A stretch of DNA of 64,000 nt, from assembly GCA_902769525.1 (NCBI GenBank), contig CACXPG010000002.1:62001-126000 (forward strand), in the 5' to 3' direction. This DNA is from an uncultured Bacteroidia bacterium (GTDB lineage: Bacteria; Bacteroidota; Bacteroidia; Bacteroidales; UBA932). Below are positions 38,671-46,612 of this stretch, piece by piece (position 1 is the first letter of the stretch; the number at the start of each line of letters is the position of its first letter). The notes beneath the pieces were generated by a model that worked only from the letters and a program-made list of their open reading frames with translations, was not told where the DNA came from and did not search any database. A program made the position numbers and the translations under genes.

Positions 38671-38694
38671 TAACAGGAATTAAAGATTTTGATT

Positions 38695-39684
38695 ATGACA
38701 ATACCTATTTTGCTTCTGATACTTGGACTCGCTGTTATCGCTGCAGGCGCTCATTTTATGGTTGAAGGCTCATCCAGGATAGCTTCAAAGTTTGGCATCT
38801 CCGAACTTGTTATCGGAATGACGGTTGTGGCTATAGGCACTTCCGCTCCTGAACTTGTGGTCAGCCTTCTTGGCGCAATCAAGGGAAGCGTGGGAATCGC
38901 CGTCGGTAACGTGGTTGGTTCCAACATCTGCAACCTGCTGCTTATCATAGGATTGAGCACGCTTATCTATCCTATGGCCGTGTCCAGGGAAATCGTGAAC
39001 AGAGATATGCAGTTTATGCTCCTGTCCACTTTGGCGCTTCTTGTGATCGCCTTTGACAGGCAGATAGACACCCTCACCATAGACGATGACATGACATCCA
39101 ACTTTGTGTCCAGAAGCGAAGGAATCCTGCTTGTATTCTTCTTCCTTATATTCATAGTATACTCCGTGGCAAGCGCCAAGAGAGGAGAAAGAAATGTGGA
39201 GAAAATAACCGATCCGGACGAGAAACCCAAGAAACAATACAGTCTGGGACTTGCCCTGGTGATGGTGGCAGGCGGTATTGCCGGCCTTATCTGGGGAGGT
39301 AACCTGCTGGTAGACAACGCCACCCTGATTGCAAAGGCAAAAGGAGTGTCCGATGTTGTAATTGGTTCAACGATTGTCGCGATAGGAACCAGTCTTCCTG
39401 AACTTGCAACCAGCGTTGTAGCCGCAATCAGAAAGAAAGTGGGGCTCGCTCTCGGCAATGTTGTGGGCAGCAACATCTTCAACATTTTCCTGATTCTTGG
39501 AGGCTGCGCATCCATAACCCCTCTTCCGCTGGCGAGCATCAACCACATTCACTTTGTGTTCCTGCTTCTGGCCACTTTGCTGCTTCTGCTTTCCGCCAGG
39601 ACAAGCTTCAAGATCCGCAGGGCCGAAGGTGCCCTTCTGCTGGCGTTCTACGTCCTTTACATTGTAGTTAACATTTCTGTATAG
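38695..39684 (+). CDS. Calcium/sodium antiporter (CaCA family)
   Basis: The 329-residue inner-membrane protein has about ten hydrophobic helices. It carries the two inverted alpha-repeats of the Na+/Ca2+ exchanger family: GTSAPELVVS with GNVVGSNICNLLLI, and GTSLPELATS with GNVVGSNIFNIFLI. It resembles E. coli YrbG. The ATG at 38695 is preferred over a TTG two codons upstream. It probably exports Ca2+ in exchange for Na+ or H+. Confidence 0.9.
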   Translation: MTIPILLLILGLAVIAAGAHFMVEGSSRIASKFGISELVIGMTVVAIGTSAPELVVSLLGAIKGSVGIAVGNVVGSNICNLLLIIGLSTLIYPMAVSREIVNRDMQFMLLSTLALLVIAFDRQIDTLTIDDDMTSNFVSRSEGILLVFFFLIFIVYSVASAKRGERNVEKITDPDEKPKKQYSLGLALVMVAGGIAGLIWGGNLLVDNATLIAKAKGVSDVVIGSTIVAIGTSLPELATSVVAAIRKKVGLALGNVVGSNIFNIFLILGGCASITPLPLASINHIHFVFLLLATLLLLLSARTSFKIRRAEGALLLAFYVLYIVVNISV

Positions 39685-39757: not shown

Positions 39758-40234
39758 ATGATACTGAACAAGCAAGTCGGATTGTTCCTTAATCTGGTCC
39801 ACAACAGGTTCAAGCAGTATGTTACTGTCATCTTTGAAGAACACGGTTTCAACATCACTCCTGAGCAGTTTCTGGTTATGGACACTCTTTGGGACGAGGG
39901 TGTGCTCACCCAGCAGCAGATTGCCGACTATCTGCTCAAAGACAAGAACTCTGTCGTGAAGCTCGTTGACGGACTGGAAGACAGGAAACTGGTGCGCAGG
40001 GTCAGCAACCCTAAGGACCGCCGCCAGAACCTCATCGAGGTAACAGAATACGCAATCGAAATAAAGGACAAGGTAACTACGGCCGCGATGGAAGCCGTAG
40101 ACAAGATAATCAACGGCATCACCAAGGAAGACATGCTCACCTTCATCAAGGTTCTAAGCAAGATGGCCGAGAACATGAACAACGACATTGACCTTTTGGA
40201 ACTTGCCGCCAAATACCCAACCAACAAGAAATAG
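39758..40234 (+). CDS. MarR family transcriptional regulator
   Basis: A 158-residue winged-helix regulator. The recognition region LTQQQIADYLLKDKNSVVKLVDGLEDRKLVRRVSNPKDRR is read in several pieces and has the MarR wing motif NPKDRRQN. The flanking helices supply the dimer interface. It is 2 bp upstream of the first Hdr-like gene and is the likely regulator of that operon. Whether it senses an oxidant, a sulfur compound or a phenolic ligand cannot be told from sequence. Confidence 0.9.
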   Translation: MILNKQVGLFLNLVHNRFKQYVTVIFEEHGFNITPEQFLVMDTLWDEGVLTQQQIADYLLKDKNSVVKLVDGLEDRKLVRRVSNPKDRRQNLIEVTEYAIEIKDKVTTAAMEAVDKIINGITKEDMLTFIKVLSKMAENMNNDIDLLELAAKYPTNKK

Positions 40235-40236
40235 CA

Positions 40237-40932
40237 ATGGGAAAACTATGTGATAAGCTAATGCAGGACTACAGGATCCGCGATGGTCTGAACGCCTGCA
40301 TCAACTGCGGTACCTGCACCGCCATCTGCCCGGCTGCGGAGTTCTACCGCTACGACCCGAGAAGAATTGTGGATATAGTTCAGCACCAAGACGATGAGCA
40401 GATAGAAGAACTGCTCAAAAGCGATACTATCTGGTATTGCGGAGAATGCCTGAGCTGCGTGACGAGATGCCCGAGAAAGAACAAGGCAGGACTGATAATA
40501 ATGGCCCTGAGAAGCCTTTCTATACAGACAGGTCTCTTTATGGAATCTGAAAAGGGACGGCAGATGTACCTCCTCTGCAAAGACCTCAACAGCAACGTGC
40601 TCAACTACGGTTATTGCGTATATCCAAGAACTTTCAAGTACCAGGAGCACCCAGAAGCCGGGCTTGTCTGGGAATGGGTGGAGAAAAATATGGACGATGT
40701 CTACGACAGGCTCGGAGCCAACCTTGACAAGGACGGTCCTGGAGCCGTGCGCAAGATCCCGCAGAAAGACCTGGACGAACTGAAGAAGATATATGACATT
40801 ACCGGAGCTACGGAAATGCTTGAGAATGTCCGAAAAGCCGGAGAGAAAAAGGCTGCGGAACTCGGTCTGACCGAAGAAGAATACTGCCAGAAACTATACA
40901 CGGAATGCAGTCCTAAACATTTCAACCACTAG
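40237..40932 (+). CDS. HdrC-like 4Fe-4S electron-transfer subunit
   Basis: The 231-residue protein has two complete [4Fe-4S] motifs, CINCGTCTAICP near residue 21 and CGECLSCVTRCP near residue 68. The spacing and the helical region after them are those of heterodisulfide reductase subunit C. The C-terminal ~100 residues are a charged helical extension not needed for clusters. It would pass electrons between the HdrA- and HdrB-like partners encoded next to it. The gene starts 2 bp after marR and ends 3 bp before the HdrB-like gene. Confidence 0.85.
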   Translation: MGKLCDKLMQDYRIRDGLNACINCGTCTAICPAAEFYRYDPRRIVDIVQHQDDEQIEELLKSDTIWYCGECLSCVTRCPRKNKAGLIIMALRSLSIQTGLFMESEKGRQMYLLCKDLNSNVLNYGYCVYPRTFKYQEHPEAGLVWEWVEKNMDDVYDRLGANLDKDGPGAVRKIPQKDLDELKKIYDITGATEMLENVRKAGEKKAAELGLTEEEYCQKLYTECSPKHFNH

Positions 40933-40935
40933 AAG

Positions 40936-42000
40936 ATGATTTACGAAGGAAAGAAAAAGATCTGGGCGGATTACCAGAAAGAGATACCGGAAGACCACTA
41001 TTTTTATGTAAGAAGCTGCATCAGGCAGTCTTTCTTCCCCGCTTCAGAAGCCACGTTTCTGGACATTACCAGAAACAAGCTGGGCAAAGACATATTCGAG
41101 ACCAAGCACCACACAACCTGCGGCGGAATAGCCTATCACTCCGACGCCATCCCGCAGGAAACATCCATGACCATCATAGCCAGGCAGTTTGCCCTGATGA
41201 AAAAATACGGCTATGAGAATTACGTGTGCTCCTGCATCACCTCGTTCGGACTGTACTGCGAGACACTTGAAACCTGGAGGGAATATCCTGAACTTCAGCA
41301 GAAAATCGCCGATAACCTCTGGAAATCCTGCCGCCTGGAATTTGCCAAGCCAAAGTTCCTGGTACACGCCAGCGACCTGATATTCAAGTACAGGATGCAG
41401 ATTGCGGCCAAGAGCAAGTTCAAGCTGGTCAACCAGAAAACCGGAGAACCGCTCAGGGTCGTTGAGCACATCGGATGCCACTATTCCAAGATGTTCCCTT
41501 CCAAGGGCGTGGGCGGCGCCGAATATCCTTATGTCCTGGTCGGAATGATTGAAGCCTGGGGAGGACAAATAATCGACTATCCCGAGAGAAGACACTGCTG
41601 CGGATTCGGGTTCCGCCAGTATCTGATAAAGGGCAACAGAGGCTATTCTGTCTCCAACACCCACAAGAAATTCGAGAGCATGGAGCCTTACAAGCCGGAT
41701 ATGATAATCACCAACTGCCCAGGATGCCCTTATTTCCTCGACAGATGGCAGTATGTCATCGCCGAGACACAGGGCAAGACCTACGGGGAGAACGGACACG
41801 GAATTCCTGTATTCACATACGAGGAGGTAGCCGGTCTGGTAATGGGCTATGACCCTTGGGATCTGGGACTTCAGACCCACCAGGTAAGCGTCGAGCCGCT
41901 TCTTGACAAGATGGGCATACCATACGACCCGGCAAAGAAATACCTTGGCAGAAACGGAAAGGATCTGGGACAGCCAGGAAAACCTCATTGTCTAAAGTAG
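40936..42000 (+). CDS. HdrB-like CCG-domain subunit
   Basis: A 354-residue protein with two cysteine-rich CCG-type domains as in HdrB, the disulfide-reducing subunit. The second domain is intact: a Cys in HIGCHYS, CC in RRHCCGFGF and CxxC in NCPGCPYF. The first is altered: SCIRQ is present, but the CC pair reads TCGG and the last pair is CSC, so one non-cubane cluster is probably lost or changed. It has no signal peptide and is cytoplasmic. In methanogens HdrB reduces CoM-S-S-CoB; the substrate here is unknown. Confidence 0.82.
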   Translation: MIYEGKKKIWADYQKEIPEDHYFYVRSCIRQSFFPASEATFLDITRNKLGKDIFETKHHTTCGGIAYHSDAIPQETSMTIIARQFALMKKYGYENYVCSCITSFGLYCETLETWREYPELQQKIADNLWKSCRLEFAKPKFLVHASDLIFKYRMQIAAKSKFKLVNQKTGEPLRVVEHIGCHYSKMFPSKGVGGAEYPYVLVGMIEAWGGQIIDYPERRHCCGFGFRQYLIKGNRGYSVSNTHKKFESMEPYKPDMIITNCPGCPYFLDRWQYVIAETQGKTYGENGHGIPVFTYEEVAGLVMGYDPWDLGLQTHQVSVEPLLDKMGIPYDPAKKYLGRNGKDLGQPGKPHCLK

Positions 42001-42004
42001 AAAT

Positions 42005-43024
42005 ATGAAGAACAATATACTTGTAATCGGAGGAGGCCCGGCCGGACTTGAAGCGTCGGCCAACCTCAAAAGGCTGGGATACAATGTTATCCTTATAGAA
42101 AAAGACAAGCAGCTCGGAGGGCATCTTGCAAAATGGGACCGACTGTTCCCCGATGGAGTCTCCGCAAGGCAGACTCTGAACGCCCTGCTGGAAGAAGTAT
42201 CCGGAGTCAACTGCTTCACCGAGACTCAGCTCCAGTCTATCAATGTCCTGGACAAGTCCTACAACGCAATTCTGTCAAACGGAATCACTGTTCTGGCTGA
42301 TGCTGTGCTGCTTGCAAGCGGATTTGACCTTTTCAAGGCAGAGAAGAAAGAGGAATACGGCTACGGAATCTATGAAGGAGTAATCACCAACGCGGATCTT
42401 GAAGAAGCCTTCAGGGAGAAGAAACTGCCTTCAAAGCAGCCTCAGGCGATAGGATTTGTGCACTGTGTAGGTTCCAGAGACGAGAAGGCCGGCAATCCCG
42501 CCTGCTCCAAAGTCTGCTGCGCAACTGCCGTAAAGCAGGCCTGCGAAGTCAAGGAAGTTTATCCGGATGCCGATGTCTATTGCTTCTATATGGATCTGAG
42601 AATGTTCGGACGCCATTACGAAGACCTGTATCTTAAAGCCCAGAAAGAGTTCGGAATCAGGTTCATACGCGGAAGAGTATCAGAGGTTGCGGAAACCGCT
42701 GACGGTAGGCTCCAGGTAAAGGCTGAAGACACTCTGTCCAGCAAGCCGCTTCGCGTAAGTCTGGATATGCTGGTGCTGATGGCTGGAATGAGACCTTCCG
42801 AATCAGGCAAGACCGTCGGCCGCCAGCTGAACCTGACCACAGAAGAAGACGGCTTCTTCTCCTCTGCCGACAACCTGCTTGAAATCCAGAGAAGCAAGCT
42901 TCCGGGATTCTTCTACGCTGGAGCCTGTACGGGAGCAAAGACACTCCCCGACACTCTCCACGAGGCCCGAAGCGCAGCCATCGAGATAGACAGATACATT
43001 AAAGAAAAATTCAGCGAGAAATGA
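42005..43024 (+). CDS. HdrA-like FAD subunit lacking ferredoxin domains
   Basis: This 339-residue flavoprotein starts with an FAD-binding GGGPAGLEAS loop and keeps the HdrA core. The cluster cysteines in HCVGSRD and in ACSKVCC are present, and the YMDLRMFGRHYE and IRGRVSEV stretches match HdrA. It lacks the N-terminal and C-terminal ferredoxin-like extensions of methanogen HdrA, and is about half that length. It overlaps the next gene by 4 bp (ATGA). It is the likely flavin centre of the complex; electron bifurcation is possible but unproven. Confidence 0.82.
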   Translation: MKNNILVIGGGPAGLEASANLKRLGYNVILIEKDKQLGGHLAKWDRLFPDGVSARQTLNALLEEVSGVNCFTETQLQSINVLDKSYNAILSNGITVLADAVLLASGFDLFKAEKKEEYGYGIYEGVITNADLEEAFREKKLPSKQPQAIGFVHCVGSRDEKAGNPACSKVCCATAVKQACEVKEVYPDADVYCFYMDLRMFGRHYEDLYLKAQKEFGIRFIRGRVSEVAETADGRLQVKAEDTLSSKPLRVSLDMLVLMAGMRPSESGKTVGRQLNLTTEEDGFFSSADNLLEIQRSKLPGFFYAGACTGAKTLPDTLHEARSAAIEIDRYIKEKFSEK

Positions 43025-43347
43025 TAGATTTCGGTTTTTCCGTCAGCCCGAGTTCCAGAATCAACCTGGACAGTGTGGACAGGGAGTCATTCGCTGCCCT
43101 GGCCAAGCTTGAGCCGGATGTTCTCAAATGCATGGCATGCGGCAGCTGTTCAGCCAGTTGCACTGCCTCGCAGTTTGAGCCGACAAGTGTCAGAAGAGCC
43201 ATTCTCTCTCTTCAGAACGGACAGGTGGAACAGGCTCTGGACCTTCTCAAAGGCTGCATGATGTGCGGAAAATGCACTATGGTCTGCCCAAGGGGCATAA
43301 ACACCCGCCACCTTATCATTTCAATCCAAAAAATCTACGGAAAATGA
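43021..43347 (+). CDS. Second HdrC-like 4Fe-4S protein (short)
   Basis: A 108-residue protein with two cluster motifs, CMACGSCSASC near residue 38 and CMMCGKCTMVCP near residue 78. The first motif ends without the usual Pro. It is HdrC-like but has none of the C-terminal extension of the first copy. It overlaps both neighbours by 4 bp, so it is likely made in fixed ratio with the HdrA-like and HdrDE-like proteins and links them electrically. Confidence 0.82.
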   Translation: MIDFGFSVSPSSRINLDSVDRESFAALAKLEPDVLKCMACGSCSASCTASQFEPTSVRRAILSLQNGQVEQALDLLKGCMMCGKCTMVCPRGINTRHLIISIQKIYGK

Positions 43348-45254
43348 TCAGCATTCTGATATCGGCGGTGCAACCGGTTACTCCTGAAGGTATTATCGAC
43401 AGATACCCCAACAGCTACAACCATTTTGTGCTGCCATTTGTCATAGGCATTTCGTTCATTTTGGTCTATCTTCTGATAGGCCTGATCAGAGTCCTGTACC
43501 ATCTTACGGGAGAGGACAGGATAAAGCTTCTCAAATCGCTGTTCATTCCAAAGACAGCGCTGAAGAATCTCAAGGACTTGTTCTGCGACTGCCTGCTGCA
43601 CACCAAGATATGGAAAAGAAAGCCTCTTCTGGGATATATGCACTCGGCCATCGCCCTTGGATGGTTCCTGCTGATTATAGTCGGCCACCTGGAAGTCTAT
43701 ATCTTCGCCCCAAGACATCTGGAAGGAATCACGGAAGGCTCTCTGTACTATCCTATTTTCTACCGTTTCTTCATCTGGATCAATCCGGCGCACGAAACGC
43801 TCCGGGGTACAGTGTTCTTCTTCATCATGGACCTTCTGCTGCTCTATGTGCTGAGCGGAATCGGCCTGGCGATGTTCAAGAGAGTGAGGTCTATCGCGCT
43901 GGGAATGAGGCATACCACAAAGCCTTCCCTGGCAGACCGCGTGGCTCTCTACTGCCTGTGGGCTATATTCCCGTTAAGACTTCTGGCAGAGAGCTTTACA
44001 GCCGACCTTAGCGGCGGAAGCTTCCTCACCAAGCCGATGAACTGGATGTTCAAGGCCTTCTTTGGAAACGAGTTGAACTTTATGCCTACCTGGTGGGCCT
44101 ATTCTATCTGCCTTGGGCTGTTCTTCCTCGCGATGCCGTTCTCAAGGTATATGCACATACTGACAGAGCCGCTGCTGATTCTGATGAGAAACGCCGGGCT
44201 GAAAGTCCGCAAGCCGAGAAAAGGATTCGCCGAGGCGGAAATCTACGCCTGCTCAAGCTGCGGATTGTGCATAGACGCCTGCCCAATGAACTCCCAGAAG
44301 AAGAACCTCAAATACTCTTCGGTTTACTTCATCAGGTTCCTTCGCAGGCACAACAACCGCAGAATCAACGAGATAGCAGACAAGTGCCTGATGTGCGGCA
44401 AATGCGCCGCCATCTGTCCTGTGGGCGTCAACTCTCCTGAAATCAGAAGGGTGCAGAGAGAAACCCTGAACAATTCCATCAATTACGACTATTCTTATCT
44501 GGACAGCATCGCCCAGACCGCAAAACCGGAAAACGCCGAAGCGTCAGCCGAGGGCAAAGTGCTGTATTTTGCAGGCTGCATGAGCCATCTTACACCTAAG
44601 ATTATAAAGTCTGTGGAAAGCCTGATGAAAGCATCGGGAACCGAATGGGAATTCCTGGACAAAGACAAGGGCATCTGCTGCGGAAGACCGCAGATGCTCG
44701 CCGGAAAGACTCAGGCAGCCAGAAAGGCCATCCAGGCAAACAAGGCCCTCATAGAAGCCTCCGGGTGCAAGACGCTTTTGCTGTCCTGCCCTATCTGCCT
44801 GAAAGTGTTCAAGGAAGAATACGGCCTTAAAGGCATCGAGATACTGCATTACACCCAGTTTATAGACCGTCTGGCCAAGGAAGGCAAGATAACCCTTGAG
44901 AAAGGCACGGAAGCCATAGTTTATCACGATCCTTGCGAACTGGGCAGAGGCTGCGGCATTTACAACGAGCCGAGGAACGTGCTTTCTGCTGTCGGAGACC
45001 TGAAAAAAGCCCCTAAGGAAAGAGACGAGAGCGTATGCTGCGGCTACAGTCTTGGCAGTATGACTCTGGACGAGAAAGACCGCGCAAAGATTGCGGAACA
45101 CTCCGTGGACAACCTTATGGCAGCCAATCCGGACTGCATAGTTACTGCCTGCCCGATGTGCTACAGGGCCATAAGGAGCAAGTCCCCGGTTCCTGTCAAG
45201 GACTTCGCGGAGGCTGTCGTTGAAAACATAAAGCCTTCTAAAACAAAGAAATAA
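43344..45254 (+). CDS. HdrDE-like fusion: membrane cytochrome-b-type domain plus Fe-S/CCG domain
   Basis: The frame is open upstream, but the ATG at 43344 overlaps the previous stop and gives a sensible 636-residue protein. Residues ~25-300 hold five or six membrane helices with His residues placed as possible haem b ligands (YMHSAIALG, IIVGHLE, RYMHILTEP), as in HdrE/NarI. Two [4Fe-4S] motifs follow (CSSCGLCIDACP, CLMCGKCAAICP). Then comes an HdrD-like domain with CCG motifs (FAGCMSH, ICCGRPQ, SCPICL, HDPCELG, VCCGYSLG, CPMCY). It would connect a membrane quinone pool to the cytoplasmic Hdr-like proteins. Confidence 0.85.
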   Translation: MISILISAVQPVTPEGIIDRYPNSYNHFVLPFVIGISFILVYLLIGLIRVLYHLTGEDRIKLLKSLFIPKTALKNLKDLFCDCLLHTKIWKRKPLLGYMHSAIALGWFLLIIVGHLEVYIFAPRHLEGITEGSLYYPIFYRFFIWINPAHETLRGTVFFFIMDLLLLYVLSGIGLAMFKRVRSIALGMRHTTKPSLADRVALYCLWAIFPLRLLAESFTADLSGGSFLTKPMNWMFKAFFGNELNFMPTWWAYSICLGLFFLAMPFSRYMHILTEPLLILMRNAGLKVRKPRKGFAEAEIYACSSCGLCIDACPMNSQKKNLKYSSVYFIRFLRRHNNRRINEIADKCLMCGKCAAICPVGVNSPEIRRVQRETLNNSINYDYSYLDSIAQTAKPENAEASAEGKVLYFAGCMSHLTPKIIKSVESLMKASGTEWEFLDKDKGICCGRPQMLAGKTQAARKAIQANKALIEASGCKTLLLSCPICLKVFKEEYGLKGIEILHYTQFIDRLAKEGKITLEKGTEAIVYHDPCELGRGCGIYNEPRNVLSAVGDLKKAPKERDESVCCGYSLGSMTLDEKDRAKIAEHSVDNLMAANPDCIVTACPMCYRAIRSKSPVPVKDFAEAVVENIKPSKTKK

Positions 45255-45273
45255 TTATAATACTTTCACATAT

Positions 45274-46560
45274 ATGGAAATAAAACCTACTAGCTACCGC
45301 CTGGAAAGCTGCCTGACACACAGGGTATTCGACGATACCGGATGGATGATGGCAGATCCCGAGGACAACAGCCCTTCACTTGTCAGGGCTGTCTACGACA
45401 AAAAACAGATAGAATTCAAAGGCCCGGAGTACGGCATTTACAGATTTGCCGACTGGCTTCCGGTAAGCAGAATGCTCAAAGGCAGCTGTGCTCCTGTTAC
45501 TTACAAGAGCGAAGGCCTTGCAAAAAAACTGGGTCTGAAGAACCTCTACATAACCTATAGCGGGTGGTGGCCGGAAAAGGGAGCCAGGATGAGCACCTGC
45601 TCGTTCAAGGAAACCGAGGCGTATTCGGTCTGCGGAAGACTCGCCAAGGAGAACAATAAAGTGCTGGTTGTCGCATCCGCCGGCAACACGGCAAGAGCCT
45701 TCTCCCAGGTTTGTTCGGACAACAACATTCCGCTTGTCATCGCGATACCTGAAGACAACCTTAACGCCCTATGGTTCAAGGAGCACCTGAACAGCTGCGT
45801 AAAGGTGATCTGCTCTCCTAAGGGCAGCGACTACTTTGACGCCATAGCCCTTGCGGCTAAACTCAACGCCTCCCCTATGTTCCTGGAGGAAGGCGGAGCC
45901 AAGAACGTTGCCAGAAGAGACGGAATGGGAACCACAGTGCTCTCTGCCGCTCAGTCAATTGGCAAGATTCCTGATGTCTATTTCCAGGCAGTGGGAAGCG
46001 GAACCGGAACAATCGCCGCCTACGAGGCCAATCTCAGGCTCAAGGAAGACGGAAGGTTCGGAAGCCACATAATGAAGCTCATTCCTTCACAGAACGTGCC
46101 GTTTACGCCTATGTACGACGCCTTCAAGGCAGACAGCCGCGCCCTTCTCCCGATGGACGAGAACGAAGGCAGAATCAAGGCGCTGCAGATCAAGGCACCG
46201 GTTCTCAGTAACCGAAAACCGCCTTACTCCATCGCCGGAGGCCTATACGATGTGCTTAAGGCCAGTGGCGGTGATTTCCAGAAGGTTACCAACGGAGAAC
46301 TCACAGAAGCCTGCGAACTGTTCGAAGAACTGGAAGGTTCAGACATATATTCAGCGGCAGGAGTTGCAGTGATGAGTCTGATCAAGGCCCTCAAGGACGG
46401 CCAGGTGACACCGGACCAGACGATAATGCTCAACATCACCGGCGGCGGAGAAAAGCGCTTCAAGAAAGAGTTCAACTATGTAAACGCAAAGGCGGACCTG
46501 GTTCTCTCTCCGGAATGCAGCCCTGCCGAAATCATCGAGAAAGTTACAGCGCTTTTCTAG
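45274..46560 (+). CDS. Cysteate synthase (PLP, threonine synthase-related)
   Basis: Cysteate synthase makes L-cysteate from O-phosphoserine and sulfite. In methanogens it feeds coenzyme M; in Bacteroidetes cysteate feeds sulfonolipids. The 428-residue protein matches my memory of the cysteate synthase family along its length: YRFADWLPVS, PVTYKSEGLAKKLGLKN, SGWWPEKGA, VVASAGNTARAF, NVARRDGMGT, YFQAVGSGTGTIAAYEA. The PLP Lys is Lys112 in TCSFKETEA. It could be read as ThrC, which shares the fold, but these blocks are not ThrC-like. It lies 19 bp after the HdrDE-like gene, with a strong terminator after it. Confidence 0.85.
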   Translation: MEIKPTSYRLESCLTHRVFDDTGWMMADPEDNSPSLVRAVYDKKQIEFKGPEYGIYRFADWLPVSRMLKGSCAPVTYKSEGLAKKLGLKNLYITYSGWWPEKGARMSTCSFKETEAYSVCGRLAKENNKVLVVASAGNTARAFSQVCSDNNIPLVIAIPEDNLNALWFKEHLNSCVKVICSPKGSDYFDAIALAAKLNASPMFLEEGGAKNVARRDGMGTTVLSAAQSIGKIPDVYFQAVGSGTGTIAAYEANLRLKEDGRFGSHIMKLIPSQNVPFTPMYDAFKADSRALLPMDENEGRIKALQIKAPVLSNRKPPYSIAGGLYDVLKASGGDFQKVTNGELTEACELFEELEGSDIYSAAGVAVMSLIKALKDGQVTPDQTIMLNITGGGEKRFKKEFNYVNAKADLVLSPECSPAEIIEKVTALF

Positions 46561-46579: not shown

Positions 46580-46612
46580 AAAAACTCCTGCCGAAAATGG
46601 CAGGAGTTTTTA
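46580..46612. terminator. Bidirectional rho-independent terminator after the cysteate synthase gene
   Basis: A perfect 12-13 bp stem (AAAACTCCTGCC with GGCAGGAGTTTT) and a GAAAAT loop, with T-rich tails on both strands. It closes the MarR-Hdr-cysteate synthase operon and also serves the convergent small gene at 46634. Confidence 0.9.

Follow-up and report, generated by a model that had tools for sequence, protein, structure and literature searches.

The 64,000-nucleotide stretch of DNA analysed here (the window, from contig CACXPG010000002.1 of an uncultured Bacteroidia bacterium, order Bacteroidales) contains an operon that joins genes for proteins resembling subunits of heterodisulfide reductase (Hdr) to a gene for cysteate synthase (CS). 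Seven open reading frames (ORFs) are confirmed on the forward strand, coding in this order for a MarR-family regulator, HdrC1, HdrB, HdrA, HdrC2, an HdrE-HdrD fusion (HdrDE) and CS (Table 1). The intergenic distances along the operon are 2, 3, 4, -4, -4 and 19 bp, and the packing described in the initial annotation (gaps of 2-19 bp or 4-bp overlaps) is confirmed. The operon ends at a terminator-like hairpin of 14 pairs. The stem of this hairpin is the longest in the terminator scan, which gave 9 sites where 8.7 were expected, so that its length alone is notable. An ATGA overlap with HdrC2, read by eye, gives the HdrDE start (a longer GTG start was proposed by the ORF caller), and the scans of the family used a start at 43347, one residue shorter than 43344. 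Three sigma-70-like sites were found, all outside the gap between HdrDE and CS (45255-45273), in a scan that does not cover Bacteroidota promoters.

Table 1. Features of the operon and its surroundings, in window coordinates.
Feature	Position	Strand	Basis
MarR-family regulator, first gene of the operon	39758..40234	+	PF01047, 46.7 bits (cut-off 24.6)
HdrC1-like dicluster ferredoxin subunit, 231 aa	40237..40932	+	NF041779, 86.2 bits (under cut-off 350)
HdrB-like subunit	40936..42000	+	Cys motifs, predicted fold
HdrA-like FAD subunit, 339 aa	42005..43024	+	End-to-end alignment with PDB 6tjr
HdrC2-like dicluster ferredoxin, 108 aa	43021..43347	+	TIGR03290, 33.6 bits (under cut-off 160)
HdrE-HdrD fusion (HdrDE)	43344..45254	+	PF02754 in two stretches, Fer4 domains
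Cysteate synthase, archaeal type, pyridoxal phosphate (PLP)-dependent	45274..46560	+	TIGR03844, 454.5 bits (cut-off 324.9)
Intrinsic terminator-like hairpin, 3' of the operon	46580..46611	+	14 pairs, T-rich tail after
Calcium/sodium antiporter (CaCA family), upstream neighbour	38689..39684	+	TIGR00367, 251 bits (cut-off 179.65)

The last gene scores as a cysteate synthase, as had been proposed. It passes the curated cut-off of the CS model by a wide interval (454.5 over 324.9 bits) and reaches 61.9 bits with the best threonine synthase model, scores that rule out the latter identity; its catalytic activity on O-phosphoserine and sulfite is predicted. Cysteate synthase requires sulfite. The five proteins encoded between the regulator and CS match Hdr and related models, always under the curated cut-offs, and they are therefore regarded as Hdr-like and not as Hdr proper.

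The predicted metal ligands of these proteins are strongly conserved (the rows counted below, and the HdrDE-CS gaps given later, include at least four regions counted twice). HdrC1 keeps its eight cluster cysteines in 83/83 rows, and HdrC2 its eight in 72/72. In HdrB, the C-terminal five-cysteine CCG motif is intact (C181, C221, C222, C261 and C264, in 87/87 rows) and the N-terminal one is reduced to C28, C62 and C100 (87/87 rows). The structural model of HdrB (mean predicted local distance difference test, pLDDT, 80.4, falling below 50 in two loops flanking the C-terminal motif) has the methanogen HdrB structures 7bkb_B and 5odc_B as top fold matches. HdrA contains one [4Fe-4S]-type site (C154, C167, C171 and C172, kept in 89/89 rows). 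It aligns over its full length with PDB 6tjr (E 1.3e-57), which we take to be the HdrA-like protein of the Hyphomicrobium sHdr system, with the four cysteines of the CX12CX3CC site matching; methanogen-type HdrA outscores 6tjr marginally, over part of the length. HdrDE is composed of a cytochrome-b-like membrane domain, a dicluster domain and two complete five-cysteine CCG domains, all ten cysteines of which are kept in 90/90 rows. Four histidines in the membrane domain do not vary among 30 close relatives; in the wider set of 90 rows three are invariant and the fourth is present in 60. The HdrDE model (pLDDT 83.6) finds its best fold match in EtfD (9ojn, E 2.6e-20, TMq 0.70).

Conservation was followed in 149 genomes of the window's family and in 393 Bacteroidales genomes (the order sample). 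Codes beginning with L and G denote loci and genomes, and those with f and g families and genera; G000 is the window's own genome and f1 its family. Hdr presence was scored from HdrB alone (a match at E 1e-60 in the family sample) and CS was called above the model cut-off. In the family, CS is found in 73 genomes, HdrB in 62 and both in 53. HdrB and CS are adjacent in 45 of these 53, which represent eight genera, always with CS downstream on the same strand, at 3.1-3.5 kb in 44 genomes and at 6.7 kb in one; the gap between HdrDE and CS is 60 bp or less in 45 of the 46 loci measured (median 18.5 bp). The expectation that the Hdr genes and CS would stay together in relatives is thus borne out in this family, where the linkage exceeds chance. 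Even among the eight non-adjacent genomes, three (G305, G498 and G489) still have HdrA-HdrC2-HdrDE beside CS, with HdrB distant or on another contig. In G305 and G498 the HdrC1-HdrB genes lie separate from MarR-HdrA-C2-DE-CS, and G224 and G451 carry an additional lone HdrC1-HdrB pair. This pair, seen in L087, L088, L091, L129, L073 and L075, looks as if it were a detachable module.

In the order sample, CS is over the cut-off in 103 genomes, a strong HdrB match is present in 127 and both occur in 43. Only four of these 43 have the two genes adjacent by coordinates, all in the window's family, and therefore exact pairing of Hdr with CS is a trait of one family. A class-level sample gave Hdr matches in 2/169 genomes, one being G000 and the other (G672, locus L235) having no lipid gene beside Hdr. 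Independent origins of the linkage were considered with an HdrB tree made by a quick method, with many weak forks and without L221-L225, in which all 35 CS-linked rows fall inside one clade of 40 rows (support 100) together with five unlinked rows; six rows linked to lipid genes (SulA or VOC, see below) lie outside it, and at least seven changes of linkage state are needed.

Named relatives of the window's CS were also examined (the best 80 of at least 561). HdrDE adjoins CS in 36 of them by a distance rule: 33 of the 50 labelled as unclassified Bacteroidales, Bacteroidia or Bacteroidetes, both Cryptobacteroides records and the one Muribaculum record. L161 fails the distance rule, yet its map gives the same gene order. 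The four nearest of these 80 records are Bacteroidia or Bacteroidales metagenome-assembled genomes with 84-89% CS identity, two of them labelled omasum and rumen. Some Bacteroidales, many of them from animal guts, have Hdr genes built into sulfonate-lipid clusters. The tie to Rikenellaceae suggested in the initial annotation is not supported: HdrDE is beside CS in 0/17 records labelled Alistipes, Rikenella, Millionella, Tidjanibacter or Rikenellaceae (in one of which, L177, just 0.4 kb before CS is covered), and this group is rejected as host.

The Hdr genes also track the sulfonolipid acyltransferase SulA, a relation that the initial annotation had proposed to check. With SulA called at E 1e-90 in the family sample and at E 1e-120 in the order sample, and in tests that count kin genomes as independent and ignore shared descent, SulA is present in 60/62 HdrB genomes of the family versus 22/87 others (p 2e-20), and in 118/127 HdrB genomes of the order versus 157/266 others (p 2e-13). 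CS behaves similarly in the family (SulA in 71/73 CS genomes and in 11/76 others). In G000, SulA is located on another contig than the operon (G000:C4:203109-204326; 64% identity to the SulA of locus L079), and directly downstream of it lies a gene for a short-chain dehydrogenase/reductase (SDR) with 35% identity to the L079 SDR, SDRs being proteins that match many families. Sulfonolipid as the sink for cysteate, the initial proposal, is therefore well supported genomically. SulA-like acyltransferases (E 1e-120 or better) occur in 275/393 genomes of the order sample, so that sulfonolipids may extend beyond the handful of genera commonly cited.

These genes are united in L079 (f1), where a vicinal oxygen chelate (VOC) protein, an alpha-oxoamine synthase (AOS) enzyme, an SDR, HdrC1-B-A-C2-DE and CS are encoded on a single strand; L225 (f1) has an identical gene order. 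In L079 the AOS enzyme resembles SulA, with 542 bits to 7u7h, which we take to be SulA of Alistipes finegoldii, and 540 bits to 28eh, a solved cysteate-C-fatty acyltransferase, versus 232 bits to serine palmitoyltransferase. The residues of 7u7h around the key lysine agree with a primer printed in the available part of PMC9304779, where Lys281 is described as the residue that sets SulA apart from Spt. A SulA motif containing this lysine is present in 25 of 26 SulA-like ORFs checked, some being the same gene in overlapping loci. The SulA of G000 has the lysine as well, and in L220 the motif reads RSQIYAKSLPM.

Outside the window's family, Hdr genes lie beside SulA in five other families and in other gene orders, and four of these families have a second PLP synthase. 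The maps of relatives were made from longest ORFs picked greedily, so that gene starts are approximate, and genes were labelled by BLAST against the proteins of the window and eight proteins from relatives; L221-L225 were chosen for SulA proximity. In f81 (L062-L064) the cluster comprises SulA, PLP synthase, SDR, VOC and Hdr; in f41 (L066) SulA, PLP synthase, Hdr, SDR and VOC; in f24 (L065) Hdr, SulA and PLP synthase; in f108 (L222) SulA, PLP synthase and Hdr; and in f27 (L221) Hdr and SulA, with neither CS nor PLP synthase. Two f1 loci of genus g208 are of the same kind, L224 (SulA, divergent PLP synthase, SDR, VOC and five Hdr genes) and L223 (VOC, Hdr in a different order, SulA and PLP synthase). 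This divergent PLP synthase (L062:15142-16359, minus strand, and L065:11636-12946, plus strand, with relatives in L063, L064, L066, L222-L224 and L226-L229) shares 24-26% identity with CS in L062-L065 and has, by eye, a zinc-ribbon-like N-terminus. It stays below the cut-offs for both cysteate and threonine synthase, scoring somewhat higher on one threonine synthase model. According to the available part of a review (PMC10191378), the enzyme of Capnocytophaga is CapA, and Alistipes and Odoribacter rely on a homologue of the one in archaea; judging from its neighbours, the divergent protein could be another cysteate synthase or be related to CapA, which is a guess.

A protein of the VOC/glyoxalase type, about 355 aa long and below every curated NCBIfam cut-off, recurs with SulA and Hdr (L079:14843-15919, minus strand, L061, L062-L064, L066, L203 and L223-L226). 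The CaX-like antiporter gene found upstream of the window's operon also stands upstream of the cluster in L076, L110, L111 and L134, and in L222 it precedes SulA; its part in the module is uncertain. A gene for an MscS-type channel follows CS in L158, L163, L169, L171, L174, L175, L178, L186, L194, L198, L202, L206, L080 and L076, a group that includes both Cryptobacteroides records, and other relatives have a gene for a SulP-type anion transporter in this place.

CS loci that lack Hdr are informative about what Hdr may provide. CS occurs without HdrB in 20 family genomes, 19 of them SulA-positive. In the CS-only genomes of genus g4, a gene for a formate/nitrite-type (FNT) channel occupies the Hdr position in 6/6 loci and a SulP gene follows CS, with MarR before FNT-CS in 5/6 (the contig of L128 stops before the MarR position). 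In genus g225, MarR adjoins CS in 9/11 loci, and convergent SulA and SDR genes lie beside CS in 10/11. MarR thus stays with CS in some relatives without Hdr. The L089 channel scores above the cut-off of the FNT subfamily model (243 vs 232.3 bits) and falls short of that of the FocA model (237 vs 290). The FNT family has formate, nitrite and hydrosulfide members, as stated in the available part of PMC5525234, and no sulfite-type member is reported in the literature found. The presence of an FNT gene in the Hdr position makes a shared anion supply plausible, since replacement of a redox complex by an anion channel would be expected if both supply the same anion.

The sulfur background of the window's genome was surveyed with selected families. 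No match to PF01507 (CysD/CysH type) was found in G000 at E 1e-12, other sulfate-activation families not having been searched, and PF01077 (sulfite reductase) was found in 0/16 genomes tested, a hand-picked set of ten Hdr-linked, three FNT and three MarR-CS genomes in which LbpA and TusA were also scanned. G000 is rated 92% complete, and single absences are therefore weak.

Gene content, linkage, co-occurrence and conserved ligand residues are observed; from them we infer a complex, its quinone, its substrate and its direction. The best explanation, to which we assign a probability of about 55%, is that the operon encodes a cysteate-making module in which a menaquinone-linked Hdr-like complex supplies sulfite to CS. 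Its parts differ in strength: that the Hdr complex serves cysteate and sulfonolipid synthesis is very probable, that it does so by supplying sulfite is somewhat favoured, and that this supply is oxidative is a tentative proposal. HdrC1-B-A-C2-DE would form a membrane-anchored complex whose HdrE cytochrome-b domain exchanges electrons with menaquinone, with sulfur chemistry taking place at the noncubane clusters predicted in HdrD and HdrB. The resulting sulfite would be delivered to CS and joined there to O-phosphoserine to give cysteate, from which sulfonolipid (capnine) would then be made by SulA and a ketocapnine reductase, whose genes lie outside the operon in other parts of the genome. The favoured direction, in which sulfide or sulfane sulfur would be oxidised to sulfite with electrons passing to menaquinone, is preferred because G000 yielded no gene of the CysD/CysH type and none for a sulfite reductase. 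The potentials of the bisulfite/sulfide couple (about -116 mV) and of menaquinone (about -74 mV) would make this oxidation slightly downhill. The complex may work like sHdr except that electrons would pass to menaquinone, a reading favoured on two grounds: neither LbpA nor TusA is conserved, and the place of the second HdrB is taken by a membrane HdrDE. One could speak, as a speculative extension, of an assimilatory sulfide oxidation in presumably anaerobic Bacteroidales, in which an LbpA-free, menaquinone-linked Hdr-type complex would make sulfite for the C-S bond of a lipid headgroup, and not for energy, and an anion channel would substitute where sulfite can be imported.

Several observations weigh against sulfite supply by the Hdr complex as the general explanation. 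HdrB is absent from 58 order genomes that have both SulA and CS and from the 19 SulA-positive, CS-only family genomes, and Hdr is thus dispensable for cysteate. The possibility that Hdr is mostly conserved without CS in relatives, which would speak against the functional link, is not seen in the family (53/62 HdrB genomes have CS) and is seen in the order, where 84/127 HdrB genomes lack canonical CS and Hdr outside the family is mostly not beside it. Across the order, the association between Hdr and canonical CS is weak (p 0.02) and it vanishes among SulA-positive genomes (odds ratio 0.88, p 0.61), which argues against Hdr and CS being strictly paired in other families. The maps of 40 Hdr loci of the order sample from outside the family (20 top-scoring and 20 chosen from lower ranks, four of them, in G081, G341, G185 and G376, for a nearby CS-like match) show no lipid gene beside Hdr in 34 and such a gene in six, L061 having the VOC gene alone. 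The N-terminal cluster site of HdrB is degenerate. PF01507 matches exist in 6/53 HdrB+CS family genomes, G432 having two neighbouring ones, although two of the six are in frames of about 800 aa and not necessarily sulfate enzymes. LbpA is not conserved (most of the 16 genomes have a single ordinary GCV_H and the Hdr-linked G368 has none; in G000, G395 and G484 a second match, of 22-23 bits, just reaches the cut-off of 22.2), and TusA is absent in 8/10 Hdr-linked genomes, G000 included; membership of the canonical sHdr system is ruled out on these grounds. Finally, the FNT gene scores closer to FocA than to NirC, and the CS-only loci of genus g221 (two of three mapped) have neither MarR nor FNT before CS, with a SulP gene near.

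The same linkage evidence would suit a complex working in the opposite direction, with menaquinol electrons entering through the HdrE cytochrome domain and cleaving thiosulfate or an S-sulfonate to release sulfite for CS together with a thiol or sulfide. Both five-cysteine CCG sites are kept in HdrD, and a SulP-type transporter, which could import a sulfur oxyanion, follows CS in the Hdr-bearing L139, L141, L142, L144 and L129. SulP is also found with FNT and without Hdr (L089 and L124-L128), however, and is therefore no marker of Hdr function; no thiosulfate-specific gene turned up in the locus maps, no search having been aimed at one; and menaquinol-driven thiosulfate reduction is steeply uphill by its redox potentials, all of which makes a reductive release unlikely. 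A role in general redox housekeeping is also improbable. As a thiol/disulfide or flavoprotein:menaquinone oxidoreductase of broad use, the complex would have regulation or inheritance in common with the lipid genes without supplying sulfite. Strong HdrB matches in 127/393 order genomes, the 34/40 mapped loci without an adjacent lipid gene, the fold that HdrDE shares with EtfD and the separation of HdrC1-HdrB from HdrA-C2-DE-CS in G305 and G498 are what such a housekeeping enzyme would give. Clustering of the neighbours of unlinked Hdr operons revealed no clear metabolic partner besides SDR, AOS and VOC genes; their neighbours include a response regulator in seven loci (a sensor kinase in six) and ABC ATPases in seven. 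A housekeeping role fits poorly with the excess of SulA among HdrB genomes (118/127 vs 157/266), with the several gene orders that put Hdr inside or beside a lipid cluster, and with the ten CCG cysteines of HdrD, kept in 90/90 rows where EtfD has Thr and His. Of the two functions offered in the initial annotation, neither of which is proven, supply of sulfite for cysteate is a better fit than a generic coupling of thiol and quinone.

A role in a later lipid step, such as a redox modification that the complex and the VOC-family protein would jointly make to an acyl chain, would explain the VOC gene beside Hdr without CS or SulA in L061 (f79) and the VOC genes within the clusters of L062-L064, L066, L079 and L223-L225. 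Hdr is accompanied by CS, and not by the later enzymes, both in the window and in the majority of the linked loci that were mapped, and replacement by FNT would suit substrate supply better, so that this role is very unlikely.

Bacteroidota sulfonolipids are treated as bioactive in the available part of PMC10191378, and the portions of the literature at hand already describe SulA, cysteate synthase and ketocapnine reductases but do not address the source of sulfite for a bacterium without sulfate assimilation. Among the matches listed in open-licence PMC (titles, abstract openings and term counts), no report linked Hdr to cysteate, sulfonolipid, capnine or sulfobacin, and a search combining cysteate synthase, sulfite and sulfonolipid found no report of a link to Hdr. 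The Hdr-like complex of the window is a candidate supplier of this sulfite and, if this is true, Hdr chemistry would here serve the making of a lipid, and not methanogenesis or sulfur respiration.

The system resembles several known ones in part. With the capnine/sulfonolipid pathway (CapA-CapB-CapC; SulA of Alistipes finegoldii) the window's genome shares CS, SulA and an SDR beside SulA, and differs in the redox complex, of which the available parts of PMC9304779, PMC11211663 and PMC10191378 make no mention. The domain order and whole-chain fold of HdrDE are those of EtfD (9ojn), an ETF:menaquinone oxidoreductase that has Thr539 and His583, described as non-catalytic in the available part of PMC13083937, whereas the cysteine sets of the window's HdrD are complete; an EtfD-type electron wire is therefore rejected, its fold fitting and its ligands not. 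The methanogen HdrABC is also distant: the window's HdrA is short and scores 250 against 1100 bits (HdrA2) or 189 against 1400, HdrB scores 133 against 450 and HdrC 86 against 350. To our knowledge, CoM-CoB is not expected in a bacterium of this order. QmoABC is a quinone-linked Hdr-related complex, and its QmoC model gives HdrC1 45.7 and HdrC2 27.5 bits, with a cut-off of 300. The membrane HdrDE of Methanosarcina has, like that of the window, a cytochrome-b-like part and an HdrD with two five-cysteine CCG domains, but in the window the two are fused in one chain and have HdrA-, HdrB- and HdrC-like subunits alongside. The nearest functional parallel would be the sHdr-LbpA system of Hyphomicrobium and others, whose gene order includes HdrC1-HdrB-HdrA, as in the window's operon, and which carries two HdrB subunits, B1 and B2. 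Likeness extends to the short HdrA-like subunit with the four-cysteine site of 6tjr (cofactors being predicted) and to the product, sulfite, which is what CS needs. The available parts of PMC10332631 and PMC12423496 describe the formation of sulfite by sHdr, which according to the former requires LbpA. The window's operon differs in having one HdrB, with a membrane HdrDE bearing a cytochrome-b-like domain instead of the second, in relatives that lack conserved LbpA and TusA, and in its setting, which is lipid biosynthesis and not an energy pathway.

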